From contig NZ_CP165734.1 in NCBI RefSeq assembly GCF_041200145.1, positions 7,731,001-7,795,000 of the forward strand: a stretch of DNA of 64,000 nucleotides, read 5' to 3'. Position numbers and translations under genes: made by a program. Within the stretch, counting starts at the first letter, position 1. Every line of letters starts with the position of its first letter. Below, one piece after another: positions 14,341 through 36,941 of this stretch. This stretch comes from Bradyrhizobium sp. LLZ17 (GTDB lineage Bacteria; Pseudomonadota; Alphaproteobacteria; Rhizobiales; Xanthobacteraceae). The notes below the pieces were generated by a model. It did no database searches. It was given only the letters and a program-made list of their open reading frames with translations, and was not told the origin of the DNA.

Positions 14341-14510
14341 AGGTTGCTTCCTTCTGCCGCGGCGCAGCGCCGCCGGTGCACCATACATCGTGGACCCCGC
14401 GGCGAAACCGGGGCAGCCTGCATGGCTTGCCTCATTGTTTGAACCATGAAACATTTGGGGTGGTTGGGTTCGGTGGCGCCGGTCGGCGCCGGAGCAACGG
14501 AGTGGGCACG

Positions 14511-19821: not shown

Positions 19822-20868
19822 ATGCTGGCTGATCGCATCGAAGCAAAATGGATCGACGCATTCTGCGAGATTTTTGAGCGATGCGCGGTCAGGGCGGGTG
19901 ATACCGCGGCAATCCTCTCGGAGACGCAGTCGCGCGCGTTGAATGTGCACCTGGCTGAGCTTGCTCTACTGCGCATGGGGGCGCGGCCGTTTCACGTGGT
20001 GATACCGACGTCCCGCAACCGCAATATCGTGCCGGTCCGCTCGACAGGAGCGAGCGAGGCCATCCAGAAACTTGGGCCAGTCATCAGCGCGCTCCAGCAG
20101 GCGGGCTTCGTGGTGGATTGCACCATAGAAGGCCTGATGCACGCGGCGGAGACACCCGAGATTTTGAAGGCCGGTGCGCGGATCCTCGTGATTTCCAACG
20201 AGCATCCTGAGGCGCTGGAGCGGATGGTCCCGGATTCGGCCCTCGAGAAGCGCGTTCGCGCTGCAGCGAAGATGCTGCGCGGGACCAAGCGGATGCGAGT
20301 CACATCAAAAGCGGGGACCGCTCTCGACGTCGACATGGTCGGAGCTTCGACAGTCGGCGTATGGGGCTGGACAGACAAACCCGGCACGCTAGCGCACTGG
20401 CCCGGCGGCATTGTCGTGAGCTTTCCCAAGAGCGGGACGATCAACGGCACGCTGGTGATGGCGCCGGGCGACATCAATCTCACCTTCAAGCGCTATCTGA
20501 CCTCGCCGATTAAAATGACGTTGAAGGATGACTATGTCGTCGAGCTGGACGGCGAGGGCGCGGATGCGGCGATGATGCGGGCTTATCTCGCCGCTTGGGG
20601 TGATCGCGAGGCCTATGCGGTATCGCATGTTGGCTTCGGCATGAATCCGGGCGCGCGCTACGAGGCGCTCTCGATGTACGACCAGCGCGACACCAACGGC
20701 ACGGAGATCCGCGCGGTCTCCGGCAATTTCCTGTTCTCGACCGGCGCCAACGAATTCGCCGGCCGCTACACGGCAGGCCATTTCGACCTGCCGATGATGG
20801 GAACCACCATCGAGCTCGACGGGGTCGCGGTCGTCCGCGAAGGCGTGCTTCAGGATATCTTCGGCTGA
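19822..20868 (+). CDS. NicX-like 2,5-dihydroxypyridine dioxygenase / M29 aminopeptidase-fold protein
   Basis: A 348-residue protein of the M29-like metalloprotein family that includes the ring-cleaving 2,5-dihydroxypyridine 5,6-dioxygenase NicX. The C-terminal half has SHVGFGMNPGARYEAL (His269) and AGHFDLPMMGTTIELDG (His320, Asp322). Spacing and context fit the His-His-Asp iron ligands I recall for NicX. It lies 36 bases after the permease genes of an ABC importer and downstream of a two-component monooxygenase, so ring cleavage of a hydroxylated N-heterocycle or aromatic is a reasonable inference. Databases often label such proteins leucyl aminopeptidase, which is the main alternative. Its end overlaps the convergent gene by 19 bases. 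Confidence 0.7.
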   Translation: MLADRIEAKWIDAFCEIFERCAVRAGDTAAILSETQSRALNVHLAELALLRMGARPFHVVIPTSRNRNIVPVRSTGASEAIQKLGPVISALQQAGFVVDCTIEGLMHAAETPEILKAGARILVISNEHPEALERMVPDSALEKRVRAAAKMLRGTKRMRVTSKAGTALDVDMVGASTVGVWGWTDKPGTLAHWPGGIVVSFPKSGTINGTLVMAPGDINLTFKRYLTSPIKMTLKDDYVVELDGEGADAAMMRAYLAAWGDREAYAVSHVGFGMNPGARYEALSMYDQRDTNGTEIRAVSGNFLFSTGANEFAGRYTAGHFDLPMMGTTIELDGVAVVREGVLQDIFG

Positions 20869-21857
20869 CCGCGATCGAGCACGGGCGGGCGCGCCAGGTC
20901 GAAGTGCCGGAGCAGGTCGACCATGGCCTGAAGCCGCTTTGTGCGATAGGCGTCGACGTCGAGGCCGGAATAATCGAGAAAGCCTGCGCCCGTTCGCAGG
21001 CCGATCCTGCCTTCATGCATGTTGCGTGAAATGACGTCCGGCGCGCGATAACGGTCGCTGCCGAGCGCGCCTTCGAGATACCGGCTGGCGTAGTAGAGAA
21101 TGTCGCCGCCGCCCCAGTCGATGAATTCAAGCAGCCCGAGCACTGCGTAGCGGAAGCCGAAGCCGTAACGGATCGCCTTGTCGATGTCCTCGGCGCTTGC
21201 GACACCTTCCTCGACCATGCGCGCCGCTTCATTCATCGCAAGCGCCTGGATGCGCGGGACGATGAAGCCGGGGGTGGCAGCGCAGACCACCGGCACCTTG
21301 CCGATGCCTTCCAGCAGCGCCTTGACCTCTTCGATGATGGCCGGGTCGGTTCCACTCCCGGGCGAAACCTCCACTAGCGGGATCAGATAGGCCGGATTGA
21401 GCCAATGGACATTGAGGAAGCGGCGAGGATTTTCGATCGCGCCGGATAGATCGTCGACGAGAATAGTCGATGTCGTTGACGCGATGACGGTGTCGGGGCG
21501 AACCTGCCTCGACGCAGATCCCAGCACCTCGCGTTTGAGCTCGACCACCTCAGGAACGCCCTCGAACACCATTCCCGCGTCGGCAAGCGCTGCAGCACTC
21601 CGGTGAGATGCCACTACCGAGACCCGCGCGATGAGGGGCTCGACATCGGCCTCGGTCAGTAGCCCCAGGCTCGACAGGCTGGCGAATGTTTTCCGGACCT
21701 CGCCGAGCGCGTCCGCCTCCAGCTTGGTGAACTCCTCCGCGGAACGGGCCTTGGCGTCGACCATGGTGACGCTGTGTCCCGCGTACGCGAACGCAACAGC
21801 GATGCCGCGCCCCATGCGGCCGGCACCGAGACATGCGATCTTGGTGCGAGTCGTCAT
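20850..21857 (-). CDS. 3-hydroxyacyl-CoA dehydrogenase
   Basis: A 335-residue NAD-dependent dehydrogenase. The Rossmann motif is CLGAGRMGRGIAVAFAYAGHSVTMVDA, followed by the 3HCDH segments MVFEGVPEVVELKREVLG and FLNVHWLNPAYLIPLVEVSPGSGTDPAIIEEV. The catalytic-His region is NVHWLNP and the C-terminal helical domain begins FIVPRIQALAMNEAARMVEEG. It should oxidise a 3-hydroxyacyl-CoA in beta-oxidation. It is the last gene of a minus-strand run, 3 bases after the opine-dehydrogenase-like gene. L-carnitine dehydrogenase-like activity is an alternative for this size class. Confidence 0.85.
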   Translation of the reverse strand: MTTRTKIACLGAGRMGRGIAVAFAYAGHSVTMVDAKARSAEEFTKLEADALGEVRKTFASLSSLGLLTEADVEPLIARVSVVASHRSAAALADAGMVFEGVPEVVELKREVLGSASRQVRPDTVIASTTSTILVDDLSGAIENPRRFLNVHWLNPAYLIPLVEVSPGSGTDPAIIEEVKALLEGIGKVPVVCAATPGFIVPRIQALAMNEAARMVEEGVASAEDIDKAIRYGFGFRYAVLGLLEFIDWGGGDILYYASRYLEGALGSDRYRAPDVISRNMHEGRIGLRTGAGFLDYSGLDVDAYRTKRLQAMVDLLRHFDLARPPVLDRGQPKIS

Positions 21858-21860
21858 GGA

Positions 21861-22949
21861 TCAAAATCCCTTGCGAAGCAGCGTCTGCAACTCGGCTTTG
21901 CCGAGATTGCCAAGCCCCAGCGTATCGAGCGTTCGTCCGCCCTGCTCGAAATTCTCGCCGCAGACCGCGCCACCGATGGCGAGGAAAGCTTTGGCCAGCG
22001 GCGTGGCCACGCCCGCCAGGCTCGCGACTGAGACCAGCAGCGACAATCCAAGCCGCAGATCCTCCCGCATGTAGCGATGCTCGGTGAGCACGATGCGTTC
22101 ACGCCAATCGCCGGAATCCGTGAGCCGGTCATGCGAGCCGCGGCCATACATCCAGATTTCGCCTTCCCGGGCGTAGTGATGGGCCAAGGGAAAATGCGGT
22201 GCGCCATATCCAAGCGCCTCGCGCACCGCGATCCGCTCGGCGTCCAGCGCGTCGGTGACCTGGCGAATGGAGGCTTGGGTGCCCTCCTTGTGAATATCCC
22301 ATTTTTCGAAGTGCTCGATCGGGCCCGCATTCATCACGATCAGTGGCGGGTGGATGATAGGACCTGCATTCATCAGCGCGCCCGAAAGCGCGTCTCCGCA
22401 CGGTTCGATCGCGCCGGGAAAAGCACGTCCGATCACTTCCAGCGCTTGCGGCGCCCGCTCGAGTGGAAACACGCCGACCGGCAATCGCTTGGCGCGGATG
22501 GTGATCGCGACCTCGAAGGGCCCGTGCTTGCGGGTGAGCCAGGGAAGCGTGCCGGTCTCGGCGAAGCTCGCGCTGGCGCGATTGCTGGCATCCCGCACGG
22601 CTTGTGCGAAGATCATCGAGCCGAATGTCGCCGGCGGCAGAAACACGACTTGGCCGTCCCGCAAATGTGGGGCAAGCAGGCGGGCGATGTCCGGCTGCGC
22701 GAACGCGGGGGCGGGGCACAGGATCAGTTCGGCGCCGCTGACCGCTTCGGCGATGTCGGCCGTCACCAGCGCCAGTTTCACGTTGTGGCGGCCATTGTGG
22801 TCCTTCACCACGATTCTGGAACCAGCGGCACGATGAGCTGCGACCTGATCCGCGTCGCGGCGCCAGAGCCGGACCTCGTGCCTCGCCAGCGCAAAATCGC
22901 CTGCGGCCGCGAAAGAGCCGTTACCACCGCCCAGGACCGCAATCTTCAA
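21861..22949 (-). CDS. Octopine/opine dehydrogenase-family NAD(P) oxidoreductase
   Basis: A 362-residue enzyme with an N-terminal Rossmann domain (MKIAVLGGGNGSFAAAGDFALARHEVRLWRR) and a C-terminal octopine-dehydrogenase domain. MNAGPIIHPPLIVMNAGPIEHF contains the conserved His/Asn region, and YGAPHFPLAHHY is also typical. Opine dehydrogenases reversibly join an amino acid to a 2-keto acid through a secondary amine. It overlaps the acyl-CoA synthetase gene upstream by ATGA and is 3 bases from a hydroxyacyl-CoA dehydrogenase, an unusual setting for this family. An imine/amine step in breakdown of a nitrogen-containing ring product is conceivable but unproven. Confidence 0.8.
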   Translation of the reverse strand: MKIAVLGGGNGSFAAAGDFALARHEVRLWRRDADQVAAHRAAGSRIVVKDHNGRHNVKLALVTADIAEAVSGAELILCPAPAFAQPDIARLLAPHLRDGQVVFLPPATFGSMIFAQAVRDASNRASASFAETGTLPWLTRKHGPFEVAITIRAKRLPVGVFPLERAPQALEVIGRAFPGAIEPCGDALSGALMNAGPIIHPPLIVMNAGPIEHFEKWDIHKEGTQASIRQVTDALDAERIAVREALGYGAPHFPLAHHYAREGEIWMYGRGSHDRLTDSGDWRERIVLTEHRYMREDLRLGLSLLVSVASLAGVATPLAKAFLAIGGAVCGENFEQGGRTLDTLGLGNLGKAELQTLLRKGF

Positions 22950-24482: not shown

Positions 24483-25772
24483 TCAGTCGTCCGTTTCGCC
24501 GGCCTCGTACAGCGCCTCGCGTCCGATACGATCGAGGCAAAGTTCGGCCGTCCAGGGCAGCATCAGCGAGCCGCAGCGGCTGTCGCGATAGATCCGCTCC
24601 AGCGGCAGTGATCGCAGCATGGCCTGGCCCCCGCAGGTGCGGATCGCGAGCGCCGCCAACTCGTTGGCGCCCTCCATCACCGAATATTGCGCGGCGTAGG
24701 CGCGCAGCACCTGCTCCTTGCTCGGGTTCGCCCGCGCCTCGGTGACGGCCTGAAACCAGATCGCCTTGATCTGCTCCAGCTTGATCTGCATCTGGGCGAC
24801 GGCGATCTGCTTGGTCGGGTACATCCTGCGCTTGACCGGCGGCATGCCCGGCACCTCGCCGCGCAAATATCGCACGGTGAAATCATAGGCCGCCTGCGCC
24901 AAACCCATATAGGTCGGCGACAACGTCAGGAACATATGCGGCCAGCGCATCGCGGCCTGGAAATAGACGCCGCGCGGCATCAGCGCGGCATCCTCCGGCA
25001 CGAACACGTCCTTGAACAGCAGCGTCCGCGACACCGTGCCGCGCATGCCGAGCGGATCCCAGTCGCCGACGACGGAGACGCCTTGCGACTTCGCAGGGAT
25101 CGCCAGGTAAAGCGTGTTGCGGCGCGAGGCCTTCTCGCCTTCCTCGATCTCGGTGCAAAGTACGCCGTAATAATCGGCGTGGCCGGAGAGCGACGCAAAG
25201 ATTTTCTTCCCGTTGACGATCCAGCCGCCTTCGACCGGCTTTGCTTCCGTGCCGAAGGCAACACCGCCTGCGGCGGCTGCACCGCCCTCCGAGAATGGCT
25301 GCGAGTAGATCGCGCCGTCCTCGAGGATGCGCTTGTAGTGGACGGCGCGCCGCCGCTCGTGCGCCGCGCGGGTTTCGGCGTCCATGTCGAGATCGTCGGC
25401 AAGGGGGCCGGACCACAGGGTTGAGCAGACATGCATGTTCCAGGTGAGCGCCGTTGCGCCGCAATAGCGGCCGATCTCGGCCGCCGCTAAAGCATAGGTC
25501 TGATAGTTCGCGCCGAGCCCGCCATGCTTCTTGGGAATGGCAATGCCGAGCAGGCCGACACGATGCAGGTCGCGATAATTCTCGCTCGGGAAGACCGCCT
25601 CGCGATCGTAGGTCGCGGCGCGACCGGCGAACACGCTCTGGCCGATCTCGCGGGCGCGCGTGATGATGCCGGCCTGCTCGTCGTTCAACCGGAATGCAGC
25701 GGGATCGAAGATCGGTGCGTCCAGGGCGATCTGGTCACCGGTGCCGATGGTCTTGCTGACTTGCATGGTCAT
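24483..25772 (-). CDS. Acyl-CoA dehydrogenase
   Basis: A 429-residue FAD enzyme. The N-terminal helical domain reads FRLNDEQAGIITRAREIGQSVFAGRAATYDREAVFPSENYRDLHRVGLLGIAIPKKHGG. The middle beta domain contains QPFSEGGAAAAGG and WDPLGMRGTVSRTLLFKDVFVPED. The C-terminal bundle contains YSVMEGANELAALAIRTCGGQAML. Start at 25772 has GGTGA upstream; 25766 is an alternative. It lies between an alpha/beta hydrolase and the acyl-CoA synthetase in a minus-strand operon divergent from the hydroxylase operon. A role in oxidising the reduced ring-CoA or its opened product is likely. Confidence 0.88.
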   Translation of the reverse strand: MTMQVSKTIGTGDQIALDAPIFDPAAFRLNDEQAGIITRAREIGQSVFAGRAATYDREAVFPSENYRDLHRVGLLGIAIPKKHGGLGANYQTYALAAAEIGRYCGATALTWNMHVCSTLWSGPLADDLDMDAETRAAHERRRAVHYKRILEDGAIYSQPFSEGGAAAAGGVAFGTEAKPVEGGWIVNGKKIFASLSGHADYYGVLCTEIEEGEKASRRNTLYLAIPAKSQGVSVVGDWDPLGMRGTVSRTLLFKDVFVPEDAALMPRGVYFQAAMRWPHMFLTLSPTYMGLAQAAYDFTVRYLRGEVPGMPPVKRRMYPTKQIAVAQMQIKLEQIKAIWFQAVTEARANPSKEQVLRAYAAQYSVMEGANELAALAIRTCGGQAMLRSLPLERIYRDSRCGSLMLPWTAELCLDRIGREALYEAGETDD

Positions 25773-25779
25773 TGTGCGG

Positions 25780-26598
25780 TCACCCGTGTCTGGCCGTGAC
25801 GGCGTCCAGAAACCCGCCGAGGGCCCTGTCGAAGGCATCCGGTTGTTCGAGGTTAGCGAGATGCCCGGCGCCGGCAAGCTCGACATATTCTGCGGATGGA
25901 ATGTACGACGCGGTCTTCGCCATCATCGGAGCAGGCGCGTTGTTGTCTCGGGAGCCGGACAGCAGCAACGTCGTAACGGAAATATCCTTCAGCGTGCTGC
26001 GTTGATCGAATCCGATCAAAGCCAGCATCATGGCGCGATAGCTTGCCTCGGGCACGCTCGCCATGCATTCGCTCGCAAGCTCTAACCCTTTCGGATCGGG
26101 ATCGTCGCCGACCAGTTCTTTCACGAGAGAAGGCGCCAGCGACTTCATCGTCTCCCCGTGATCGAGCGGACCGAGCCTTGCGGAGATGAATGATTTCTGC
26201 CAATCGCCGTCGGCCTTGCCAAAGGCCGGGCTGGTTTGTGCCAAGACAATCGCGCGCGCCAATTTCGGTGATTGCACCAGCCATTTCTGGACGATCATGC
26301 CGCCGATCGAATGGCCGACCAGAATGGGGCTCTCCGCACCGATCTGCGCGATGAATTGCTGGAGCGCGTCCGCGAGCGCTGGGATGCTGACGCTGGCAAG
26401 CGGTGCCGATCCGCCATAGCCCGGCATATCCCACGCGATCGCGTGGAAGCGATTGCCGAATGTGGCGAGCTGTCGCCGCCAGGCCCGCGCCGCGCCGCCA
26501 ATGCCGTGCAGGAATATCAGAGGCGTCGCGTTCGGATCGCCTGCCGCTTCGTAGGCGAAGCGCCCGTCTTTTGTTATCATCGGTGCGGGTTGCGACAC
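25780..26598 (-). CDS. Alpha/beta hydrolase
   Basis: A 272-residue hydrolase resembling 3-oxoadipate enol-lactonases and meta-cleavage-product hydrolases. The oxyanion motif is FLHGIGGAARAW, the nucleophile elbow is VGHSIGG (Ser97), the acid is Asp218 (SGSRDNN) and the base His246 (GAGHLANLEQP). It begins at a GTG (26598) preceded by AAAGGA. It is the first gene of the minus-strand operon and so is directly downstream of the divergent promoter region with two MarR-type palindromes. It probably hydrolyses a ring-opened or lactone intermediate or a CoA ester. Confidence 0.85.
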   Translation of the reverse strand: MSQPAPMITKDGRFAYEAAGDPNATPLIFLHGIGGAARAWRRQLATFGNRFHAIAWDMPGYGGSAPLASVSIPALADALQQFIAQIGAESPILVGHSIGGMIVQKWLVQSPKLARAIVLAQTSPAFGKADGDWQKSFISARLGPLDHGETMKSLAPSLVKELVGDDPDPKGLELASECMASVPEASYRAMMLALIGFDQRSTLKDISVTTLLLSGSRDNNAPAPMMAKTASYIPSAEYVELAGAGHLANLEQPDAFDRALGGFLDAVTARHG

Positions 26599-26658
26599 GC
26601 GACATCCTTTTGCCTGGCGCCCGGGATGCTAACAGGCCTGTGGGCGATGGGAAGCGAT

Positions 26659-26679
26659 AATTTTATACTTAAAGCAATT
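26659..26679. promoter_or_regulatory. Putative MarR operator 1 (divergent promoter)
   Basis: The reverse strand reads AATTGCTTTAAGTATAAAAT, nearly identical to the site before the CoA ligase at 34705. It lies 61 bases upstream of the minus-strand hydrolase start. Confidence 0.6.
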
Positions 26680-26737
26680 TTCGGACCGGCCTCGATCTGC
26701 AGCCCTTCGCGACGCTGACCAGCGTTTCGTTGCAAAA

Positions 26738-26754
26738 GTTTGAAGGTTAAAATA
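26738..26754. promoter_or_regulatory. Putative MarR operator 2 (divergent promoter)
   Basis: GTTTGAAGGTTAAAATA fits the same pattern as the other sites (TATTTTA-N4-TAAAATA). It lies 40 bases upstream of the SDR start at 26795, so each arm of the divergent pair has its own copy. Confidence 0.55.
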
Positions 26755-26794
26755 TATCGAGGGTACGTATCACGAGATCCCAGGGAGCCCGCGC

Positions 26795-27556
26795 ATGTCC
26801 GGATTGCCGCATTCGCCGCACGCGCTAGTCACCGGTGGCGGCCGGGGTATCGGCCGCGCGATTGCGGCGGCGCTTGTCGGGGCCGGCGCGACGGTTACGG
26901 TGCTTGGTCGGAATGCAGCTACCCTTGAAGAGGCGGTGAACGCAGGAGCTGCACATTTTGCAGTCGTCGCCGACGTCGCGGACGAGGCCGCGTTGAAAGC
27001 TGCCATCACCGAGGCGAGCGCGCGGCAGCCGCTGGATATCCTGATCGCGAATGCGGGCAGCGCGGAGTCGGCGCCGTTCGCAAAATCCGATAGCGCCCTT
27101 TTTGCGCGCATGATGGACGTCAATTTCATGGGCGTTGTCCACGCAATCCGCGCTGTGTTGCCCGGGATGAAGGACCGCCCTTATGGCCGCATCGTCGCAG
27201 TTGCGTCCACCGCCGGGCTAAAGGGCTATGCCTATGTCAGCGCGTACAGTGCCGCCAAACATGCCGTGGTCGGCCTGGTGCGTTCGCTGGCTCTCGAGAT
27301 GGCCGGCAGCAACGTGACCGTGAATGCGGTGTGTCCGGGTTTTACCGACACCGATCTGGTCGCCGGCAGCATTGAAAACATCATCAAGAAGACCGGCCGC
27401 AGCCGCGAGCAGGCCATCGCCGAGCTCGCGAAGCACAATCCGCAGGGGCGGCTGATCACGCCTCAAGAGGTCGCTGATGCCGTGCTTTGGCTGTGCGGCG
27501 AGGGCGCCGGTGCGGTGACCGGACAGGCGATTGCGGTCGCCGGTGGTGAGATCTAG
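26795..27556 (+). CDS. Short-chain dehydrogenase/reductase
   Basis: A 253-residue SDR. The cofactor motif is TGGGRGIG (residues 13-20), the structural motif is IANAGS, and the catalytic set is Ser138, Tyr151 and Lys155 (YSAAK). VNAVCPGFTDTDLV and ITPQEVADAVLWLCGEGAGAVTGQAIAVAGGE are typical of beta-ketoacyl reductase-like members. It is the first gene of the plus-strand operon with an enoyl-CoA hydratase and the bifunctional hydroxylase. It probably oxidises a hydroxyacyl-CoA or alicyclic alcohol intermediate. Confidence 0.88.
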   Translation: MSGLPHSPHALVTGGGRGIGRAIAAALVGAGATVTVLGRNAATLEEAVNAGAAHFAVVADVADEAALKAAITEASARQPLDILIANAGSAESAPFAKSDSALFARMMDVNFMGVVHAIRAVLPGMKDRPYGRIVAVASTAGLKGYAYVSAYSAAKHAVVGLVRSLALEMAGSNVTVNAVCPGFTDTDLVAGSIENIIKKTGRSREQAIAELAKHNPQGRLITPQEVADAVLWLCGEGAGAVTGQAIAVAGGEI

Positions 27557-27599
27557 CGTGCGCGGCGCAGGCCCGGAACAAGACTGATAAGGAGATCGC

Positions 27600-28436
27600 A
27601 TGAGCAGACCAGCCAATCCGGTGACCGTGCCGCTCGTGGATTATTCGCCGCAACACTTCCTGCTGGCCGTCGTCGACGGTGTTGCGACCGTGACGCTCAA
27701 TCGTCCGGAGCGGAAGAATCCGCTGACCTTCGAGAGCTATCGGGAACTCACCGATTTGTTCCGCGCTTGCGCGTTCGACGACACGGTCAAGGTCGTGGTC
27801 GTGACCGGCGCCGGCGGCAATTTCTCGTCTGGCGGCGATGTGTTCGAGATCATCGGCCCGCTGGTGAAGATGGACACCAAGGGGCTCACTGCCTTCACCC
27901 GGATGACCGGTGACCTCGTCAAGGCGATGCGTGCCTGTCCGCAACCTATCGTCGCTGCGGTCGAGGGTATCTGCGCCGGCGCCGGCGCGATCATGGCCAT
28001 GGCGTCGGATATGCGACTGGCGGCGAGCGGAACCAAAGTCGCGTTCCTGTTCAACAAGGTGGGGCTTGCCGGCTGCGACATGGGCGCCTGTGCAATCCTG
28101 CCGCGGATCATTGGGCAGTCCCGCGCCTCTGAACTGCTGTACACCGGCCGGTTCATGACGGCGGAGGAGGGCGAGCGCTGGGGCTTCTTCAGCCGCATCG
28201 TCACGCCGGAGCAGGTCCTGCCCCAGGCGCAGGTGTTGGCAAAGCAGATTGCGGAAGGTCCGACTTTTGCCAACACGATGACCAAGCGGATGCTGGCGAT
28301 GGAATGGGCGATGTCGGTGGAAGAGGCGATCGAGGCGGAAGCCATCGCTCAAGCCCTGTGCATGACGACCGCCGATTTCGAGCGCGCCTTCGAGGCCTTC
28401 GCCAACAAGGTCAAGCCGGTCTTCCGGGGCGACTGA
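27600..28436 (+). CDS. Enoyl-CoA hydratase/isomerase family protein
   Basis: A 278-residue crotonase. The CoA-binding and oxyanion segments are [20 protein letters not shown] and [25 protein letters not shown]. The second acidic site lies in [25 protein letters not shown]. The N-terminal extension ([23 protein letters not shown]) is slightly longer than average. The start at 27600 follows AAGGAG. Close relatives occur in aerobic 2-aminobenzoyl-CoA clusters, where hydratases act after ring hydroxylation and reduction. It is in the same operon as the SDR 43 bases upstream. Confidence 0.88.
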
Positions 28437-28470
28437 GGGGGCGCCCCGCAACGGGGGGCTTGCATCAAAT

Positions 28471-28488
28471 TATTTTAGGCTTAAAATA
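28471..28488. promoter_or_regulatory. Putative MarR operator 3 (best palindrome)
   Basis: TATTTTAGGCTTAAAATA is a perfect palindrome of 7-base arms with a 4-base centre, 32 bases before the bifunctional hydroxylase gene. It suggests an internal promoter under the same regulator as the other sites. Confidence 0.65.
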
Positions 28489-28520
28489 GTTTCGTGACCG
28501 GGTGAATTGGCGAGGCTCCC

Positions 28521-30872
28521 ATGAAAGTCGCGATCATCGGTGGCGGACCTGCGGGTCTTTACGCAGCGATCCTGCTCAAGAAGCAGCGGCCGGGCGCCGA
28601 GATCACCGCGTATGAGCGCAACCGCGCCGACGATACCTTCGGCTTCGGTGTGGTGTTTTCCGATGCCACGCTGGACAATTTCGAGAAGCACGATCTTCCG
28701 AGCTACCGCCGCATCACCCAGGAATTCGCCTACTGGGACGACATCGCCGTGCATTTCCGCGGCACGGTGCACCGGGTCGGCGGCAATGGTTTCTGCGGCT
28801 GCTCGCGGCAGAAGCTGCTCCTGATCCTCCAGGAGCGGGCTCGCGAGCTCGGCGTCAATCTGTTTTTCGAAGCGGATATCGAAGACGAGGCTCGATTCGC
28901 CAATGCCGATCTCATCCTGCTGGCAGACGGCATCAACAGCCGTTTCCGCGAGAAACACGTCGAGCATTTCGAGCCTGAGGTCGAGCTCCGCGCCAACAAG
29001 TTCGCCTGGATGGGCTCGACCAGGCCGCTCGATGCGTTCACTTTCATCTTCCAGGAGACCGAGTGGGGCCCGTTCATCGCCCACGCCTATCAATACCAGG
29101 CCGGCCATTCGACCTGGATTTTCGAAACCGACCCGCAGACGTTCGAGCGGGCCGGACTGACGGGGCTGAACGAGAGCCAGTCCGCTGCGCGGATGGCCGA
29201 GATCTTTGGCTGGTTCCTCGACGGTCACAAGCTTCTCACCAATCGTTCGATGTGGCGCAATTTCCCGATGATCCGCAGCAAGCGCTGGGTCAAGAACAAC
29301 ATGGTGCTGCTGGGCGACGCCAAGGCGACCGCTCATTTCTCGATCGGTTCCGGGACCAAGCTCGCGATGGAAGACGCAATTGCGCTGGCCGAGGCGCTGC
29401 AGAACGCGCCCAGCATCAAGGCGGCGCTGGAGGTCTACGAACAGGGCCGCCGCGAGGAGGTCGAGAAGACGCAGCATGCTGCGGACGTGTCGCTGGTCTG
29501 GTTCGAGCACGTCGACCGCTTCTGGGATTTCGATCCCGTGCAGTTCGCCTTCGGCGTGATGACGCGTTCGAAGGCGATCACCTATGACAATCTGAAGCTC
29601 CGTGCACCGGATTTTGTCGCCGAGGTCGAGAAATCGTTCGCAAAGCAGGTTCGCGCCAACGGTTTTGACGTCGATACCCGCAGGCCGATGGTGCCGCTAT
29701 TCCAGCCGTTCCGGCTGCGCGAGATGGAGATCGCCAACCGCGCGGTGGTGTCGCCGATGTGCATGTACTCGGCGAGGGAAGGCGTGCCGACCGATTTCCA
29801 CCTGGTGCATTACGGCTCGCGCGCCATCGGGGGCGCCGGCCTGGTCTTCACGGAGATGACCTGCATCGGCCCTGACGCCCGGATCACGCACGGCTGCGCA
29901 GGGCTGTGGAACGACGAGCAGGAGACATCCTGGCGTCGCATCGTGGATTTCATCCATGCCAACTCGGCCGCAAAGATCTGCCTGCAGCTGGGGCACGCCG
30001 GCCGCAAGGGCGCGACCAAGCTGATGTGGGACGGCATCGACCGGCCGCTCGATGAAGGCGGCTGGGAGGTGGTCTCGGCGTCGCCGTTGCCCTATTTCCC
30101 CGACAGCCGGGTGCCGCGCGAACTCGATCGCGCCGCCATGAATGCGGTGAGAGACGCCTTCATCGCGGCGGCCGAACGCGGCGAGCGCTGCGGCTTCGAC
30201 ATGCTCGAATTGCACTGCGCCCACGGCTATCTGCTCGCAAGCTTCATCTCGCCGCTCACGAATACGCGCACCGACGAATATGGCGGTTCGCTCGCCAACC
30301 GCTTGCGCTTCCCGCTCGAGGTTTTCGAGGCGCTGCGGGCGGTGTGGCCTTCGCACAAGCCGATGTCGGTGCGGATTTCCGCAACCGACTGGGCGGAGGG
30401 CGGCATCGACGGCGACGATGCCGTGGCCATCGCGCGTGCCTTCGCCGAGGCCGGCGTCGATCTCGTCGACGTCTCGACCGGACAGACGGTGCGCGATGCG
30501 GAGCCGATCTACGGGCGCATGTTCCAGACGCCGTTCTCCGACCAGGTCCGCAACGAAGCGCGCGTGGCGACCATGTGCGTCGGCAACATCACGACTGCGG
30601 ACCAGGCCAATACCATCCTGGCCGCAGGGCGGGCTGACCTGGTCGCCCTCGGCCGTCCGCATCTTGTCGACCCCTTCTTCACTATGAAGGCTGCGGCCTG
30701 GTACGGGGCGGATGCGACTTTCTGCCCGCCGCAATATTTGCCCGGGAAAGAGCAGATTTTCCGCAACAGCGTGCGCGACCGGCAGGATCTCGAGGAGCTG
30801 AGAATTAAGGCTAAGCCCAAGACCCGGGCCGAGCTCAAGGCGGAGGCGACAAAGCCGCTTGCGGCCGAGTAA
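28521..30872 (+). CDS. Bifunctional 2-aminobenzoyl-CoA monooxygenase/reductase or salicylyl-CoA 5-hydroxylase-type fusion
   Basis: A 783-residue fusion of two flavoenzymes. Residues 1 to about 385 form a group A flavin monooxygenase: [15 protein letters not shown] at 7-21 binds FAD, and [26 protein letters not shown] is the second FAD motif. Residues about 390-760 form an old-yellow-enzyme domain: [35 protein letters not shown] and [17 protein letters not shown]. This arrangement is that of aerobic 2-aminobenzoyl-CoA monooxygenase/reductase, which hydroxylates and then reduces the ring of anthraniloyl-CoA; salicylyl-CoA 5-hydroxylase is the near alternative. The ligase, hydratase, dehydrogenases and RidA around it support the CoA pathway. 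Confidence 0.9.
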
Positions 30873-30928
30873 CCGGCCGTGCGACGTTAACCTCATTGCC
30901 TGGTGTGGTATCGAGTGGAGTTAGGGCG

Positions 30929-32179
30929 ATGAAGGCAATTATCGTCGGTGGCGGTATCGGTGGTCTCACCACGGCGTTGATGCTGCGGTCGCGTGGCATC
31001 GGTTGTGAAATCTTCGAGCAGGCCGACACCATCCGCGAACTCGGCGTCGGCATCAACACGCTGCCGCATGCCATGCGCGAGCTCGCAGGCCTCGGTCTGC
31101 TGCAGAAGCTCGACGACGTCGCGATCCGCACCGACCAGCTCTATTACCTCAACCGCCACGGCCAGGAAGTCTGGCGCGAAGCCCGCGGCATCGACGCCGG
31201 CCACGATGTCCCGCAATTCTCGATCCACCGCGGCAGGCTTCAGGGCGTGATTCATCATGCCGTCGAGGAGCGGCTCGGGCAGGACGCAATCCACACGGGT
31301 TGCCGTCTCGGCGCCTTCACGCAGGACGAGGGCGGCGTCACTGCCTATTTCTTCGATCGTACCGGCGCGCACATCCATACGGCGCGCGGCGATATCCTGA
31401 TCGGTGCCGACGGCATCCATTCGCGGGTGCGCGAGACGCTATTCCCGAACGAGGGGCCGCCGTGCTGGAACGGCTTGATGCTGTGGCGCGGTGCACGCGA
31501 CTGGCCGGTGTTCCTCACCGGAAAATCGATGATCGTGGCCGGCGGCCTCAATGCCAAGGTGGTGGTCTATCCGATCGCCGAGGGATCGAGCCCGGCGAGC
31601 CGGCTGACCAATTGGGCGGTGCTGGTGAAGGTCGGCGAGGGCAATGCGCCACCGCCGCGGAAGGAAGATTGGTCGCGGCCGGGCCGGCGCGAGGAGTTGA
31701 TGCCGCATGTGGCGCGCTTCTCCGTGCCTTACATCGACGTGAGAAGCCTGATCTCCGCGACGCCGGAATTCTACGAATATCCGACCTGCGACCGCGATCC
31801 CTTGCCCTATTGGTCGTCCGGACGGGTCACGCTGCTCGGCGACGCCGCGCATCCGATGTATCCGGTCGGCTCCAATGGCGCATCGCAGGCGATCCTCGAT
31901 GCGCGCTGCCTTGCCGATGCGCTGCTGCGCGCCGAGCATCCGCGCCAGGCGCTGGTCGAATACGAGAAGAAGCGGCTGCCGATGACGGCGGACATCGTCC
32001 GCTCCAACCGGCGCGGCGGCCCCGAGGGCGTCATCGACGCCGTCGAGCAGCTTGCGCCGGACGGCTTCGACAATGTCGATAACGTGCTGAGTTATTCCCA
32101 GCGCGAGGCCATCGTGCGCGGCTATGCCAGCAAAGCCGGCTTCGCCGCAGTGCCGGGCCTCGCGGCCGTGCGCGGTTGA
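30929..32179 (+). CDS. FAD-dependent monooxygenase (PhzS/salicylate-hydroxylase-like)
   Basis: A 416-residue group A flavoprotein monooxygenase. It opens MKAIIVGGGIGGLTTALMLRSRGIGCEIFEQ and has the NAD(P)H/FAD motif LIGADGIHSRVRETLF near residue 155. The second FAD motif VTLLGDAAHPMYPVGSNGASQAILDA is near residue 300. The family includes 5-methylphenazine-1-carboxylate monooxygenase and salicylate hydroxylases acting on free aromatics. It lies 56 bases after the bifunctional hydroxylase gene in the same direction. It may act on a side substrate or intermediate of the same pathway. Confidence 0.87.
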   Translation: MKAIIVGGGIGGLTTALMLRSRGIGCEIFEQADTIRELGVGINTLPHAMRELAGLGLLQKLDDVAIRTDQLYYLNRHGQEVWREARGIDAGHDVPQFSIHRGRLQGVIHHAVEERLGQDAIHTGCRLGAFTQDEGGVTAYFFDRTGAHIHTARGDILIGADGIHSRVRETLFPNEGPPCWNGLMLWRGARDWPVFLTGKSMIVAGGLNAKVVVYPIAEGSSPASRLTNWAVLVKVGEGNAPPPRKEDWSRPGRREELMPHVARFSVPYIDVRSLISATPEFYEYPTCDRDPLPYWSSGRVTLLGDAAHPMYPVGSNGASQAILDARCLADALLRAEHPRQALVEYEKKRLPMTADIVRSNRRGGPEGVIDAVEQLAPDGFDNVDNVLSYSQREAIVRGYASKAGFAAVPGLAAVRG

Positions 32180-32188
32180 TGTGAGCTG

Positions 32189-32647
32189 CTAGCCGGCGCC
32201 GGGCGGCGGCGGCAGGAAGTGGATGTTGAACTCGGCGGCCATCGCCACCACGTCCTCCGGCTTCTGTTCCTTCATATTGTGAAGGCCCCAGAACAGGTCG
32301 AACAGTTTGCGGGTCGGCGAGACCCAGAACAGCACCTTTGCGGTCTGGTCCGACTTGTTGAAGATGCCATGCGGCACGCCCATGCCGAGACGTATCAAGT
32401 CACCAGGGGTCGCCTGCGACTCCGAATTGCCGAGCATGAAGTCGAGCTTGCCTTCGAGCATGTAGAGATACTCATCCTGGTCGGGATGGATATGCGGCGG
32501 CACGAAAGTGCCCGGCGGCAATGTCGCGTGCCAGGAGAAGCTGTGCTCGGTGTTGCTCTTCGGCACATAGGTCTGGCCCAGGATGTTCCAGGATATCCCC
32601 TGGATTCCTTCATTGGCCCGCGTGATGCCGGTGATTTCGCTCTTCAT
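32189..32647 (-). CDS. Cupin-domain protein
   Basis: A 152-residue single-cupin protein. The first metal motif is PPHIHPDQDEYLYMLEGKLDFML (His, His, Glu) and the second GDLIRLGMGVPHGIFNKSD (His). These residues could bind one metal ion, as in small dioxygenases, or form a non-catalytic sensor. It is convergent with the flavin monooxygenase (9 bases apart) and lies 30 bases after the binding-protein gene on the same strand, so the two are probably one transcript. Role in the regulon is unknown; sugar-isomerase and quercetinase-like labels are possible but not supported. Confidence 0.82.
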   Translation of the reverse strand: MKSEITGITRANEGIQGISWNILGQTYVPKSNTEHSFSWHATLPPGTFVPPHIHPDQDEYLYMLEGKLDFMLGNSESQATPGDLIRLGMGVPHGIFNKSDQTAKVLFWVSPTRKLFDLFWGLHNMKEQKPEDVVAMAAEFNIHFLPPPPGAG

Positions 32648-32677
32648 TGCAGTCCTCCCGTAACTCGATAGGCGATT

Positions 32678-33853
32678 TCAGTTCGCCGCCTTGCAGTCCT
32701 TGGCATAGCGGTCGCCATAGTTCTCGAAAACCTTCTGGACGATCTCGGTCTGGAACTTGCCGTCCGGACGCTTGGCGACCTTGGTGAGATAGAAGTCCTG
32801 GATCGGATAGCCGTTGGTGTTGAACTTGAAAGCGCCGCGCAGCGAGGTGAAGTCGGCCTTTTTCAGCGCGGCGGCGACGGCGTCCTTGTTGGAGAGGTCA
32901 CCCTTCAGAGACTTGACAGCGCTGTCGATCAGCATGGCGGCGTCATAGGCCTGGAAAGCATAAGTGCCGGGCACGCCATTGTAGGCCGCCTCATAGGCGG
33001 CGACGAACTTCTTGTTCTGCGGATTGTCGAGATTGGGCGCCCAATTGGCGCCGCCGAACATGCCGACCGCTGCGTCCTGCTGCGCCGGCAAGGTCGATTC
33101 ATCGACGGTGAAAGCCGAGAGCACCGGAATGCTGTCGGCGAGGCCGGCCTGCCGATACTGCTTCACGAGGTTGACGCCGAGCCCGCCCGGCATGAAGGTG
33201 AAGAGCGCATCCGGCTTCTGCGACGCGATCTTGGAAAGCTCCGGCTGGAAGTCCAGCGTGTTCAGCGGCATGTAGGATTCCTCGACGATCTCGCCCTTGT
33301 AGTCGAGCTTGAACCCGGCGACCGAGTCCTTGCCGGCCTGATAGTTCGGCACCATCAGGTACATGCGCTTGTAGCCGCGATCCTGCGCCACCTTGCCAAG
33401 GATCTCGTGGACCTGGTCGTTCTGATACGAGGTCACATAGAAGAACGGGCTGCAGTCCTTGCCGGCATAGGTCGAGGGGCCCGCATTGGGGCTGATGAGA
33501 AAGGTCTTCGATTCCGTGACGGGCCGGTGAATGGCCTGGAGGACGTTGGAGAAGATCGGGCCGACCACGAAGTCGACCTTGTCACGCTCCAGAAGGCCCT
33601 TGACCTTGGTCACCGCCGCATCCGGCTTCAGCTCGTCGTCGACCACGACGACCTCGACATCGCGGCCGCCCATCCGGCCGCCGAGATCCTTCACGGCAAG
33701 CGCAAAGCCGTCGCGGACCTGTTGGCCAAGCGCGGCGGCGGGCCCGGACAGGGTCACGATCACACCCAGCTTGATCTTCTCCTGGGCGAGGGCAGGGTTC
33801 ACCGCGATGCCGAGCAGCAAGGCGGCTGCGGCCAAGGTCGATTGCGTCTTCAT
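32678..33853 (-). CDS. LivK-type ABC substrate-binding protein in the aromatic regulon
   Basis: A 391-residue periplasmic protein with signal peptide MKTQSTLAAAALLLGIAVNPALA. EKIKLGVIVTLSGPAAALGQQVRDGFALAVKDLGGRMGGRDVEVVVVDDELKPD is the typical start of type I binding proteins for aromatic acids and branched-chain amino acids. GKDCSPFFYVTSYQNDQVHEILG in the centre resembles aromatic-acid binders. The gene is divergent from the MarR gene, with two or three operator copies between them. That suggests it captures the aromatic substrate, such as anthranilate or benzoate. No cognate permeases are in the window. Confidence 0.88.
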   Translation of the reverse strand: MKTQSTLAAAALLLGIAVNPALAQEKIKLGVIVTLSGPAAALGQQVRDGFALAVKDLGGRMGGRDVEVVVVDDELKPDAAVTKVKGLLERDKVDFVVGPIFSNVLQAIHRPVTESKTFLISPNAGPSTYAGKDCSPFFYVTSYQNDQVHEILGKVAQDRGYKRMYLMVPNYQAGKDSVAGFKLDYKGEIVEESYMPLNTLDFQPELSKIASQKPDALFTFMPGGLGVNLVKQYRQAGLADSIPVLSAFTVDESTLPAQQDAAVGMFGGANWAPNLDNPQNKKFVAAYEAAYNGVPGTYAFQAYDAAMLIDSAVKSLKGDLSNKDAVAAALKKADFTSLRGAFKFNTNGYPIQDFYLTKVAKRPDGKFQTEIVQKVFENYGDRYAKDCKAAN

Positions 33854-33992
33854 GATCTGTCCCCCGTGACTATCGGGCCCGCGTTGCAGGCCGCATACTC
33901 TGATCCAAGCTTATGCCGATGATGCCCGGCGCGGCAAGCAAAGGCCGTGCGGCATCGCGCCAGCGCAGGGCGACGATCATGCAAGCGCCGCG

Positions 33993-34020
33993 CCAATTGC
34001 TTGAAGCTTAAAGAAATTGG
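33993..34020. promoter_or_regulatory. Putative MarR operator 4
   Basis: An extended palindrome: CCAATT at the left end, core GCTTGAAGCTTAAAG, and AATTGG at the right end. It lies between the divergent binding-protein and MarR genes. Confidence 0.6.
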
Positions 34021-34064
34021 CGTGCAGCCCGATTGTTGCAGCTTTAGGCTTGCAGCCCGCGCGG

Positions 34065-34089
34065 ATTTACTTGAAGCTCAAAATGTTGG
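34065..34089. promoter_or_regulatory. Putative MarR operator 5 (autoregulation)
   Basis: ACTTGAAGCTCAAAATG core, just 8 bases before the GTG start of the MarR gene. A weaker half-like copy (GCTTTAGGCTTGCA) lies near 34041. Confidence 0.55.
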
Positions 34090-34096
34090 GAAATCC

Positions 34097-34627
34097 GTGC
34101 CGGCACCAACGCCGGCCGCCGATGACTGCATCAAGATGCTCGATTCCGAGACCAAGGCCGTCGAAACGCCCGAGGACCATGCCGAAGAGCTTCGGCTGTG
34201 GCTGCGCCTGTTGACCTGTACGACCTTGATCGAAGGAGAAGTCCGCGGCCGGCTGCGGCAACGCTTCGACGTCACATTGCCCCGTTTCGATCTGATGGCG
34301 CAGCTCGACAAGGCGCCTGATGGCATGACGCTGTCGGACGTCTCCAAGCGCATGATGGTGTCCAATGGCAACGTCACGGGCCTGGTCGAACGCCTGGTGG
34401 AATCCGGCCATCTCGATCGACGTACCTCGGAGACAGACCGCCGGGTCCAGGTGATCCGCCTCACAAAGCTCGGCCGCGCCGAGTTTCGTCGGATGGCGGC
34501 GGAGCACGAGACCTGGATCGCCGATCTCTTCGCCGACCTCACGCCGAAGGATGTGCGCGAACTGATGCGGCTCCTCGCCAAGACCAAGGCCTCCGCGCAG
34601 AAATCGGCCGCGCGCCGCCGGTCCTGA
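34097..34627 (+). CDS. MarR-family regulator of the aromatic-CoA regulon
   Basis: A 176-residue winged-helix regulator. The DNA-binding part reads TLPRFDLMAQLDKAPDGMTLSDVSKRMMVSNGNVTGLVERLVESGHLDRRTSETDRRVQVIRLT, which is the MarR recognition helix and DxRxxxV wing. The GTG at 34097 follows GGGA and puts operator 5 upstream of the start; the ATG at 34136 is the alternative. The open frame extends further upstream but would then run over both palindromes, so the longer start is unlikely. MarR proteins in such clusters usually release DNA on binding the aryl-CoA thioester. It probably controls all six palindromic sites. Confidence 0.88.
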   Translation: MPAPTPAADDCIKMLDSETKAVETPEDHAEELRLWLRLLTCTTLIEGEVRGRLRQRFDVTLPRFDLMAQLDKAPDGMTLSDVSKRMMVSNGNVTGLVERLVESGHLDRRTSETDRRVQVIRLTKLGRAEFRRMAAEHETWIADLFADLTPKDVRELMRLLAKTKASAQKSAARRRS

Positions 34628-34704
34628 GTCCGCGGGCGGGGCGGCCCGCCAGTCCTCTTTGCCACAGGAAAAAGCACCGGATCTCCAAAATCGGCTATTG
34701 CGCA

Positions 34705-34730
34705 AAATTGCTTTAAGCCTAAAATGTTTC
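34705..34730. promoter_or_regulatory. Putative MarR operator 6
   Basis: Core GCTTTAAGCCTAAAATG, 46 bases before the CoA ligase start. It shares the AATTGCTTTAAG part with operator 1. Confidence 0.6.
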
Positions 34731-34775: not shown

Positions 34776-36467
34776 ATGGCCAACGCCGCCAAGATTCAAG
34801 TCCCGGGCTCGTATGACGGCAACGCTGCGAGCGCCCATGTCGATGGTTTTGCGCGGCAGCATCTGCCGCCGCCGGAACTTTGGCCGGAATTCATCTTCAC
34901 GCGACCGGAGCTGAACTATCCGCCCCGATTGAACTGCGTCAGCTATTTCCTCGATCGCTGGGTCGAGCAGGGCCACGGCGATGCGCCTTGCGTCATCAGC
35001 CCCGCCGTCAGCTACACCTATCGCGAGCTGCAAGCGCTGGTGAACCGCATTGCCAACGTGCTGGTCGGCAAGCTCGGGCTCGTGACCGGCGGGCGCGTGA
35101 TGCTGCGCTCCGCGAATAGCCCGATGATGGTTGCGACCTATCTCGCGGTGATCAAGGCCGGTGGCATTTGCGTGGCGACGATGCCGTTGCTGCGCGCCAA
35201 GGAGCTGTCCTACCCGATCCAGAAAGCTGAGATCACGCATGCGCTCTGCGACGGAAAACTCTCCGACGAGATGGAGAAGGCCAAAGCCGCCGCGCCCGGT
35301 CTCAAACATGTTGTGTACTGGGGCAACGGTGCGGCCAATTCGCTCGAGGCGATGGTCGCCGATGCCAGTCCCGAGTTCGCCGCGGTCGATACCGCATCCG
35401 ACGATATCTGCCTGATCGCCTTCACGTCCGGCACGACGGGCGAACCCAAGGGCACCATGCATTTCCACCGCGACATGCTGGCGGTATGCGACGGTTACGC
35501 ACGCAACATTCTTCGGGCCGAGCAGACCGATCGCTTCGTCGGCTCGGCGCCGCTCGCCTTCACCTTCGGTTTCGGCGGCGTTCTCTTTCCCATGCATATC
35601 GGCGCCTCCTTCGTCGTTCTGGAGAAGACCACGCCCGACGACATCCTGATGGCGATCGAGCAGTACAAGACCACGGTCTGCTTCACGGCGCCAACGGCAT
35701 ACCGCGCCATGATCGGCAAGCTTCCGGGCCGCGACATTTCCTCGCTCCGGAAGTGTGTCTCCGCGGGTGAGACGTTGCCCAAGCCGACATTCGATGCCTG
35801 GCTCAAGGCGACCGGCATCAAGCTGATGGACGGCATCGGATCCACCGAGATGTTGCATATCTTCATCAGTGCGACCGAAGACGAGATCCGTCCCGGTGCG
35901 ACCGGCAAACCCGTGCCCGGCTATGAGGCCAAGATCGTCGATGATTCAGGCAACGATGTGCCGCCGGGCACGCTCGGGCGGCTGGCGGTGCGCGGGCCGA
36001 CCGGCTGCCGCTATCTCGCCGACGAGCGGCAGCGCAAATACGTGCAGAACGGCTGGAACATCACTGGCGACACCTATCTGATGGATAGTGACGGTTATTT
36101 CTGGTACCAGTCCCGCTCCGACGACATGATCGTGTCCGCCGGCTACAACATCGCTGGTACGGATGTCGAGGCTGCGCTGCTCACGCACCCGGCGGTCGCC
36201 GAGTGCGGTGTTGTCGGAGCACCGGACGAAGCGCGCGGAATGATCGTGAAGGCCTATGTCGTCGCCGCGCCTGGCATCACGCCGGACGCGGCGCTCGCGG
36301 CCGAGTTGCAGGAGCATGTCAAGCGCGAGATCGCTCCTTACAAATATCCGCGTGCGATCGAGTTTGTGACGCAGTTGCCGAAGACCGAGACCGGCAAGTT
36401 GAAGCGCTTTGCCTTGCGGCAGCTGGCGCAGGCCGCAGTGACGTCATCTGGTGTCGCGGCAGACTGA
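34776..36467 (+). CDS. 2-aminobenzoate (or benzoate)-CoA ligase
   Basis: A 563-residue AMP-forming aryl-CoA ligase. The ATP-binding motif IAFTSGTTGEPKGTMHFHRD is near residues 213-232, with FGFGGVLFPMHIGASFVVLEK and DGIGSTEMLHIF after it. The hinge SDDMIVSAGYNIAGTDVEAALL and the C-terminal lysine motif LPKTETGKLKRFALR complete the fold. The GSTEMLH and HFHRD segments are seen in the benzoate/2-aminobenzoate ligase group. Start at 34776 follows AAAGGAG. It makes the aryl-CoA that the bifunctional hydroxylase would use, the first committed step of the pathway. RidA follows 15 bases later. Confidence 0.88.
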   Translation: MANAAKIQVPGSYDGNAASAHVDGFARQHLPPPELWPEFIFTRPELNYPPRLNCVSYFLDRWVEQGHGDAPCVISPAVSYTYRELQALVNRIANVLVGKLGLVTGGRVMLRSANSPMMVATYLAVIKAGGICVATMPLLRAKELSYPIQKAEITHALCDGKLSDEMEKAKAAAPGLKHVVYWGNGAANSLEAMVADASPEFAAVDTASDDICLIAFTSGTTGEPKGTMHFHRDMLAVCDGYARNILRAEQTDRFVGSAPLAFTFGFGGVLFPMHIGASFVVLEKTTPDDILMAIEQYKTTVCFTAPTAYRAMIGKLPGRDISSLRKCVSAGETLPKPTFDAWLKATGIKLMDGIGSTEMLHIFISATEDEIRPGATGKPVPGYEAKIVDDSGNDVPPGTLGRLAVRGPTGCRYLADERQRKYVQNGWNITGDTYLMDSDGYFWYQSRSDDMIVSAGYNIAGTDVEAALLTHPAVAECGVVGAPDEARGMIVKAYVVAAPGITPDAALAAELQEHVKREIAPYKYPRAIEFVTQLPKTETGKLKRFALRQLAQAAVTSSGVAAD

Positions 36468-36482: not shown

Positions 36483-36941
36483 TTGTCCGTGACGACGCCA
36501 AAAGGCCCGCAGCTTGCGGTGCTGTCCACCGAGGACGACACCCGGTCAGTGGTGCAGGTGCTTCAGCCTTCGGGCTGGCCGATGCCGAAGGGCTATGCCA
36601 ACGGCATGGCTGCCGAGGGACGAATCGTCGTCACCGGCGGCGTGATCGGTTGGGATGCCGAGGAGCGTCTCGCCGAAGGCTTCGTTGCGCAGGTGCACCA
36701 GACGCTGAGCAACATTGCGGCAATTCTGGCCGAAGCCGGTGCACGACCCGAGCATCTCGTGCGCCTGACCTGGTATGTCGTCGATATGGACGAATACCTG
36801 GCGAATTTGAAGGAGCTCGGCAAGATCTACCGCACCATCTTCGGCACGCATTATCCGGCGATGGCGCTTCTTCAGGTCGTCCGCCTGGTCGAGAAGGCGG
36901 CGCGCGTCGAGATCGAGGCCACCGCCGTTATTCCCCGCTGA
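36483..36941 (+). CDS. RidA-family (YjgF) protein
   Basis: A 152-residue RidA/YER057c/UK114-type protein. MAAEGRIVVTGGVIGWDAE, QTLSNIAAILAEAGARPEHLVRLTWYVVDMDEY and YPAMALLQVVRLVEKAARVEIEATAVI are the family blocks; the usual arginine for imine binding appears in the last block. RidA proteins hydrolyse reactive enamines and imines, which fits a pathway where the amino group of reduced 2-aminobenzoyl-CoA must be lost. Start is probably TTG at 36483, with AGAGGA upstream; GTG at 36489 is possible. It is in one operon with the ligase. Confidence 0.87.
   Translation: MSVTTPKGPQLAVLSTEDDTRSVVQVLQPSGWPMPKGYANGMAAEGRIVVTGGVIGWDAEERLAEGFVAQVHQTLSNIAAILAEAGARPEHLVRLTWYVVDMDEYLANLKELGKIYRTIFGTHYPAMALLQVVRLVEKAARVEIEATAVIPR

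Follow-up and report, generated by a model that had tools for sequence, protein, structure and literature searches.

A Predicted MarR Operator Joining Anthranilate-CoA Genes of Bradyrhizobium sp. LLZ17 to a Distant Kynurenine Operon

Introduction

Around a MarR-family regulator gene of Bradyrhizobium sp. LLZ17, genes for the breakdown of an aromatic acid through its coenzyme A (CoA) thioester lie on both strands, and a palindrome recurs in their promoter regions. The question that this locus raises is whether the palindrome is the operator of that regulator and, if so, which genes form the regulon and which metabolite is read. The stretch analysed, called the window below, is 64,000 nucleotides long and covers positions 7731001-7795000 of the 7.80-Mb single-contig genome. 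From it, the original prediction had read six copies of the palindrome as the mark of a MarR-controlled aryl-CoA regulon. As argued here from sequence comparison, the palindromes are predicted operators of this MarR protein, which would control an anthranilate catabolic regulon that includes a distant operon for tryptophan degradation through kynurenine (kyn); the probability of this reading is put at roughly 0.8.

Six Palindromes of One Form

All six palindromes exist, and their 18-mers start at 26659, 26737, 28471, 33998, 34068 and 34709; the sites first proposed were the right ones, with coordinates 0-5 bases off. The string given for them, TATTTTA-N4-TAAAATA, is exact at 28471 and has three mismatches at 26659, 26737 and 34709, but leaves 33998 and 34068 unmatched within three. 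Their promoter location is upheld, as by the gene calls of this analysis all are intergenic and lie ahead of start codons. The full motif is a 24-bp palindrome, AATTATTTTAAGCTTAAAATAATT, the consensus of 40 aligned sites that include the six (Table 1).

Promoters are AT-rich, and such palindromes might arise in them by chance. With up to three mismatches, the loose 14-mer pattern TTTTAAGCTTAAAA occurs at 31 places in 7.8 Mb, six of which are these sites, and its letter-reversed control occurs at 85, more than the pattern itself; the genome count is thus not unusual, and what is unusual is the clustering within 8 kb. An origin by chance is contradicted by leave-one-out scoring with a symmetric 18-column matrix, in which every site outscores each of the window's 63,941 non-site positions, with the smallest margin at 34068 (20.13 vs 18.0). 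One hundred first-order random 64-kb sequences contain no match at the lowest site score, and 8 Mb of first-order random sequence reaches a maximum matrix score of 17.4. These controls put all six sites above non-site DNA, the enrichment that had been expected of them, and with the permuted-matrix control and the conservation described below they lead us to reject chance AT-rich DNA, whose probability is negligible.

Conservation in Genus, Family and Phylum

The genus comparison covers the promoters of 14 loci (L040 and L042-L054) at a site threshold of score >= 16. A site precedes the CoA-ligase gene in 14 of 14, and at least one lies in the interval between the LivK-type gene and the MarR gene, again in 14 of 14. 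Sites also stand before the hydroxylase/reductase gene in all 11 loci that hold the gene with its upstream region, before the short-chain dehydrogenase/reductase (SDR) gene in the nine of nine where it starts the operon and the upstream region is present, and before the leftward alpha/beta hydrolase gene in the five of five that have it (L048, L050, L052, L053, L054). A shared predicted MarR operator had been proposed to extend even to the divergent hydrolase/acyl-CoA/opine-dehydrogenase-like operon, and both this conservation, promoter by promoter, and the occurrence of the motif beside unlinked MarR genes (see below) speak for it. L053 and L054 keep the cluster, yet have neither the hydroxylase/reductase gene nor its operator in the 20-kb stretch examined.

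The regulator itself is matched in 113 of the 117 genus genomes (E <= 1e-20) and in 101 of 198 family genomes, from 30 of 47 genera (E <= 1e-25); the family figure takes in the genus as well, and some weaker matches in it may be paralogs. The best site scores at least 22.7 in 20 of 20 family loci, which were picked for diversity and none of which was used for training.

At the level of the phylum, the hydroxylase has a match in 72 of the 398 genomes drawn. The survey of its upstream regions took in 61 of the 64 matches that remain after the first ten, which belong to the own family; it left out the reductase-only G327 and G659, plus G616, and one of its loci, L243, is an additional copy from a genome of the genus. 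A site scoring >= 18 lies within 400 bp upstream of the hydroxylase gene in 51 of these 61 loci, against 0 of 70 coding-stretch controls (of the 70, nine repeat the same genes) and against a mean of 2.3% and a maximum of 9.8% of loci with column-permuted symmetric matrices. In a second scan of 80 named loci, 48 reach a score of 18 and 61 a score of 14, and a related form of the motif, ACTTGACATCTAAACTAT, is found at several Paraburkholderia loci. The motif may serve to predict regulon members in other proteobacteria. Relatives of the hydroxylase/reductase also occur on contigs labelled Actinomycetota, Thermoflexus and Anaerolineae (L313, L319, L339, L365), and L365 alone among these combines a MarR match with an upstream site close to the threshold (17.9).

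The Palindrome and Its Probable Regulator

A site before the hydroxylase gene, with no MarR of this group within <=6 kb on either side, occurs at several loci of Cupriavidus, Pandoraea, Achromobacter and Ramlibacter. Seven genomes were searched in this respect: five with a site and no nearby MarR, Aromatoleum buckelii, and the positive control L302. A MarR ortholog is encoded elsewhere in all five of the former, which are betaproteobacteria (E 1e-67 to 1e-69), and a site adjoins each of the five orthologs, with scores of 17.2-23.8. Aromatoleum buckelii has no site at its hydroxylase gene, and none at its sole MarR match, which is distant (7e-18). The positive control was recovered; it has a site before the hydroxylase gene and none in its own 3.4-kb MarR stretch.

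It could be argued that the palindrome belongs to a different regulator, with MarR a mere passenger of the cluster. In that sense, MarR paralogs of about 50% identity carry the same operator in some relatives, and therefore more than one protein is associated with the motif. However, the motif adjoins MarR orthologs in other genera and where the gene is unlinked from the pathway, and at E <= 1e-20 only one MarR match occurs in the own genome, which makes a different owner of the site very improbable. The paralogs in question, in L396, L397 and L243, are second MarR proteins accompanied by their own hydroxylase/reductase copy, a RidA gene and the operator (scores 40-42). Another second copy, 74% identical, is found in L041 (G101), in a different neighbourhood and with two sites that score 24.5 and 22.2. 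Across an alignment of 17 MarR proteins, this L041 copy among them, the winged helix is largely invariant (R72 M73 M74 V75, N79, T81).

A Kynurenine Operon 6 Mb Away

The original prediction had proposed a motif scan of the whole genome. For the search of the own genome, a sequence-only profile model was built from the 40 aligned sites, the six window sites included, and 150 of 519 first-look candidates were scored. Among these, 11 matches at E <= 10 fall at seven places. Six are the window sites, whose match follows from their use in training, and the seventh, at 1677463, is new. This new site lies about 76 bp before a leftward operon, 6 Mb away, of an alpha/beta hydrolase, a tryptophan 2,3-dioxygenase (TIGR03036, 429 bits) and a kynureninase (TIGR01814, 281 bits), both of the latter above cut-off. 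The hydrolase, whose NCBIfam name is hormone-sensitive lipase, stands in the slot expected for kynurenine formamidase, and this role is putatively assigned to it from operon context only. A peptidase-like open reading frame (ORF) precedes the operon on the same strand (L035, G000:C1:1673000-1682000). The regulon first proposed is supported in its linking of the six sites and was too small in scope, as it lacked the kyn operon and possibly a transporter at 14.5 kb in the window.

With a matrix trained on the window alone, the kyn promoters of genus relatives carry a site in 30 of 30 loci (L055-L084) and in a further 15 of 20 (L085-L104); of the five misses, L091 is at a contig end, L094 and L095 are second copies on another replicon, and the remaining two are L096 and L098. 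MarR is present in 88 of the 89 genus genomes that hold the dioxygenase, the exception, G016, being 89% complete, and in 15 of the 89 the dioxygenase gene lies <=7 kb from the MarR gene. A draw from the family adds nine loci with a dioxygenase >=66% identical, all nine of which have a site; most come from genus genomes, some already in the genus dioxygenase survey. In more distant loci, such as L257, L267, L270 and L272, the kyn genes adjoin the hydroxylase cluster.

Two loose matches were set aside, neither of which is among the profile places: 3637730 (19.4), some 240 bp upstream of an aminotransferase-like ORF that has no obvious connection, and 7196689 (17.5), which overlaps an ORF.

Across 13 genus genomes, the profile finds 57 distinct places at E <= 0.1, of which 47 lie in the MarR cluster (eight of them, in G000 and G003, being training sites), five at kyn, three beside a MarR paralog with its own hydroxylase copy (these loci were viewed in two of the three genomes), and two elsewhere. 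One of the last two is before a LivK-type transporter gene, and the other lies between a flavin-monooxygenase-like ORF and a TRAP-transporter-like ORF, as named from their translations. Eight genomes of other families gave no profile match at this threshold. In L394 (G012:C2), a near-perfect operator (40.5) precedes an unlinked LivK-type transporter cluster, which is likely an extra regulon member in that strain.

Promoter Geometry and the Direction of Control

All 14 genus loci have a TTG 8 bp upstream of the site at the ligase promoter; for the hydroxylase promoter, 30 of 37 loci from genus and family have one 7-10 bp upstream. In both, the right half-site TAAAAT then lies 16-17 bp beyond the TTG, a spacing as of -35 and -10 hexamers. 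Because the operator is placed between the TTG and a TAAAAT-like hexamer, so that a bound dimer would cover the -10 region, we infer that a MarR dimer binds and represses.

Several results weigh against an anthranilate regulon of this MarR, or against repression as its mode. The TTG placement is seen in 0 of 38 kyn, 0 of 15 MarR and 3 of 14 LivK promoters, and outside the family in only 6 of 50 and 13 of 48 hydroxylase loci, while a simple consensus sigma-70 scan finds no promoter at the operators. The profile E-values in the own genome are modest (0.0017-0.33), and the lowest site beside an unlinked MarR gene (17.2) is just below the random maximum of 17.4. Sites scoring >= 18 are missing from 10 of the 61 loci of the phylum survey and from 32 of the 80 named loci, some of which have a diverged form and others none. 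No site lies at the kyn promoters of L094, L095, L096 and L098, nor at any of the dioxygenase genes of five family genomes whose products are 40-52% identical (0 of 5), and at least three of these five genomes (G158, G185, G254) have a MarR match.

Given the uneven TTG geometry, repression is not equally supported at all promoters. MarR might instead activate transcription from some or all of them, or regulate them in a mixed manner; the kyn, MarR and most LivK promoters would fit this, as would the paired sites of varied spacing before the MarR gene. Such a mode is nevertheless improbable, given that the operator overlaps the -10-like hexamer of the ligase and hydroxylase promoters, a position typical of repressors.

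The Proposed Pathway and Signal

The best solved match of the ligase is 4wv3, an anthranilate-CoA ligase, with 355 bits vs 276 for the best benzoate-CoA ligase, and the enzyme is probably an anthranilate-type CoA ligase, as the abm pathway of anthranilate degradation requires. The fusion protein is covered by NF006101 over residues 1-756, and its halves match VioD-like and old yellow enzyme (OYE)-like solved chains separately. Its NCBIfam name, bifunctional salicylyl-CoA 5-hydroxylase/oxidoreductase, would suggest salicylyl-CoA as the main substrate. This candidate was rejected, and anthranilate is favoured because of the kyn operon and the best solved match of the ligase; the fusion protein is accordingly read here as a 2-aminobenzoyl-CoA monooxygenase/reductase.

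The model proposed here is that MarR controls uptake (LivK), activation (CoA ligase), hydroxylation and reduction of the CoA thioester, later beta-oxidation-like steps, its own gene, and kyn. Tryptophan would be converted to anthranilate by the kyn enzymes, activated by the ligase, attacked by the monooxygenase/reductase, and then processed by the SDR and the hydratase; the RidA protein encoded beside the ligase could hydrolyse an enamine. 2-Aminobenzoyl-CoA, the product of the regulon's own ligase, would release MarR from DNA, and this ligand is given slightly better than an even chance. If the thioester and not free anthranilate is sensed, the regulon would stay off when anthranilate is only an intermediate of tryptophan biosynthesis, and cells could tell anthranilate for breakdown from anthranilate made for tryptophan synthesis.

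The same regulator and operators could also respond to free anthranilate, or to kynurenine. The kyn operon yields anthranilate ahead of any CoA step, many MarR proteins bind free aromatic acids, and the ligase is itself within the regulon, so that a thioester signal needs basal ligase. Yet free anthranilate, as a biosynthetic intermediate, would give a false signal, and a free ligand is considered rather unlikely. With 2-aminobenzoyl-CoA as the signal, a broader proposal is that one MarR and one 24-bp operator constitute an old, phylum-wide regulon tying tryptophan-kynurenine catabolism to the anthranilate-CoA pathway; this proposal is tentative, and its odds fall a little short of even.

Relation to Known Systems

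CoA-thioester-sensing MarR repressors of aromatic catabolism, of the CouR, BadR and HcaR type, are a known kind. The present system is like them in having a MarR gene in an aromatic acyl-CoA cluster, with palindromic operators at its own promoter and at those of the pathway, but it serves another pathway and includes a distant kyn operon. No chain was recognised as CouR among the 44 solved-structure matches of the window MarR, and the closest solved one, 3boq, was rejected as a close ortholog. KynR, of the Lrp/AsnC type, controls kyn operons and is similar in governing tryptophan-to-anthranilate genes; it belongs to another family of regulators, and the operator seen here extends to the downstream anthranilate pathway as well. 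The abm pathway has been described in Azoarcus/Aromatoleum evansii, and the CoA ligase and the monooxygenase/reductase fusion are common to both. Aromatoleum buckelii, of the same genus, differs in that it lacks the operator at the hydroxylase gene and a close MarR ortholog.

The window MarR has low similarity (29-32 bits) to chains 7kua, 7kfo, 7krh and 7kki, which we take to be structures from the IacR/IadR study. IacR and IadR are described in PMC9613470 as MarR regulators of indole-3-acetic acid catabolism in plant-associated bacteria, in a pathway connected with anthranilate; family, host association and this connection are shared, whereas the target genes differ. PMC3534580 cites the conversion of anthranilate via 2-aminobenzoyl-CoA and the A. 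evansii enzyme, and the names abmA/abmG occur in PMC13141888 and PMC8879955. In the titles and opening lines of abstracts from the open-access literature searched, outside of which most subscription journals lie, no paper on a regulator of the pathway or on the kyn link was recognised. The regulon content, the operator and its spread appear to be new here. The anthranilate-CoA pathway would thereby gain a candidate regulator and operator, with the kyn operon joining the circuit. According to PMC12633357, auxin breakdown also ends in anthranilate in Bradyrhizobium and certain other root bacteria, and therefore the switch may matter for plant-associated growth.

Genes of the Cluster

The features are collected in Table 1. 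The MarR protein has winged-helix domains above the curated cut-offs (PF12802, 47.2 bits against 27; PF01047, 39.2 against 24.6). The motif had been thought to decide its start codon, and this did not hold: the start at ATG 34136 is set instead by broken frames in relatives. The longer starts GTG 33947 and GTG 34097 were rejected, as a stop lies few codons upstream of this ATG in L008, L010, L011, L018, L026, L031 and L054. The acyl-CoA synthetase of the leftward operon (22946-24540, minus strand) appears as a pair of ORFs, 23269-24540 and 22946-23485, that overlap and differ in reading frame, and the gene is therefore frameshifted in the assembly or in the strain.

Table 1. Predicted operators and genes in the window (positions in window coordinates).
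Feature	Positions	Strand	Context	Basis
Operator A	26656..26679	-	before leftward alpha/beta hydrolase / acyl-CoA dehydrogenase operon	matrix, leave-one-out
Operator B	26734..26757	+	before SDR / enoyl-CoA hydratase operon	leave-one-out
Operator C	28468..28491	+	before two-domain hydroxylase/reductase gene	leave-one-out
Operator D	33995..34018	-	LivK-MarR divergent promoter region	leave-one-out
Operator E	34065..34088	+	ends 47 bp before MarR ATG	leave-one-out
Operator F	34706..34729	+	before CoA-ligase gene	leave-one-out
Possible weaker operator	14433..14456	+	before ATP-binding cassette (ABC) substrate-binding protein gene, ATG 14511	score 23.0
3-Hydroxyacyl-CoA dehydrogenase	20850..21857	-		PF02737/PF00725
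Octopine/nopaline-dehydrogenase-like protein	21861..22949	-		PF02317
Acyl-CoA dehydrogenase family protein	24483..25886	-		family-model search
Alpha/beta hydrolase	25780..26598	-	first gene of leftward operon	family-model search
SDR oxidoreductase	26795..27556	+		family-model search
Enoyl-CoA hydratase family protein	27600..28436	+		NF006107
Flavin monooxygenase + OYE-type reductase fusion	28521..30872	+		NF006101, 1127 bits vs cut-off 1078
FAD-dependent monooxygenase	30929..32179	+		NF005720 (on longer ORF from 30896)
Cupin protein	32189..32647	-		PF07883
LivK-type substrate-binding protein	32678..33853	-		branched-chain/urea binding-protein models, matches below cut-offs
MarR-family regulator	34136..34627	+		Pfam MarR_2/MarR
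CoA ligase, probably 2-aminobenzoate-CoA ligase	34776..36467	+		TIGR02262 (on longer ORF from 34659)
RidA-like protein	36483..36941	+	after ligase	PF01042

A Possible Further Operator at 14433

The weaker palindrome at 14433 scores 23.0, well above the next position of the window that does not overlap a site (6.3) and above the maximum of 17.4 in the 8 Mb of random sequence. In the genus, its counterpart scores >= 18 in 29 of 30 loci; the 18-bp core is identical in 28 of the 30 and keeps 17 of 18 bases in all 30, while the flanks average only 60-78% identity. The site is not among the own-genome profile places at E <= 10, its centre departs from the consensus, and its counterpart in L102 scores only 12.7. 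Because of these three points, the odds that it is an operator of the regulon, with the ABC-transporter operon as a candidate member, are about even. The region 14433-20868 of the window encodes an ABC transporter with an NMT1-like binding protein, a dihydroxy-acid-dehydratase-like gene and a protein without a Pfam match (19822-20868). In L102, the dihydroxy-acid-dehydratase-like gene and the gene of the 19822-20868 protein adjoin those of tryptophan dioxygenase and kynureninase.

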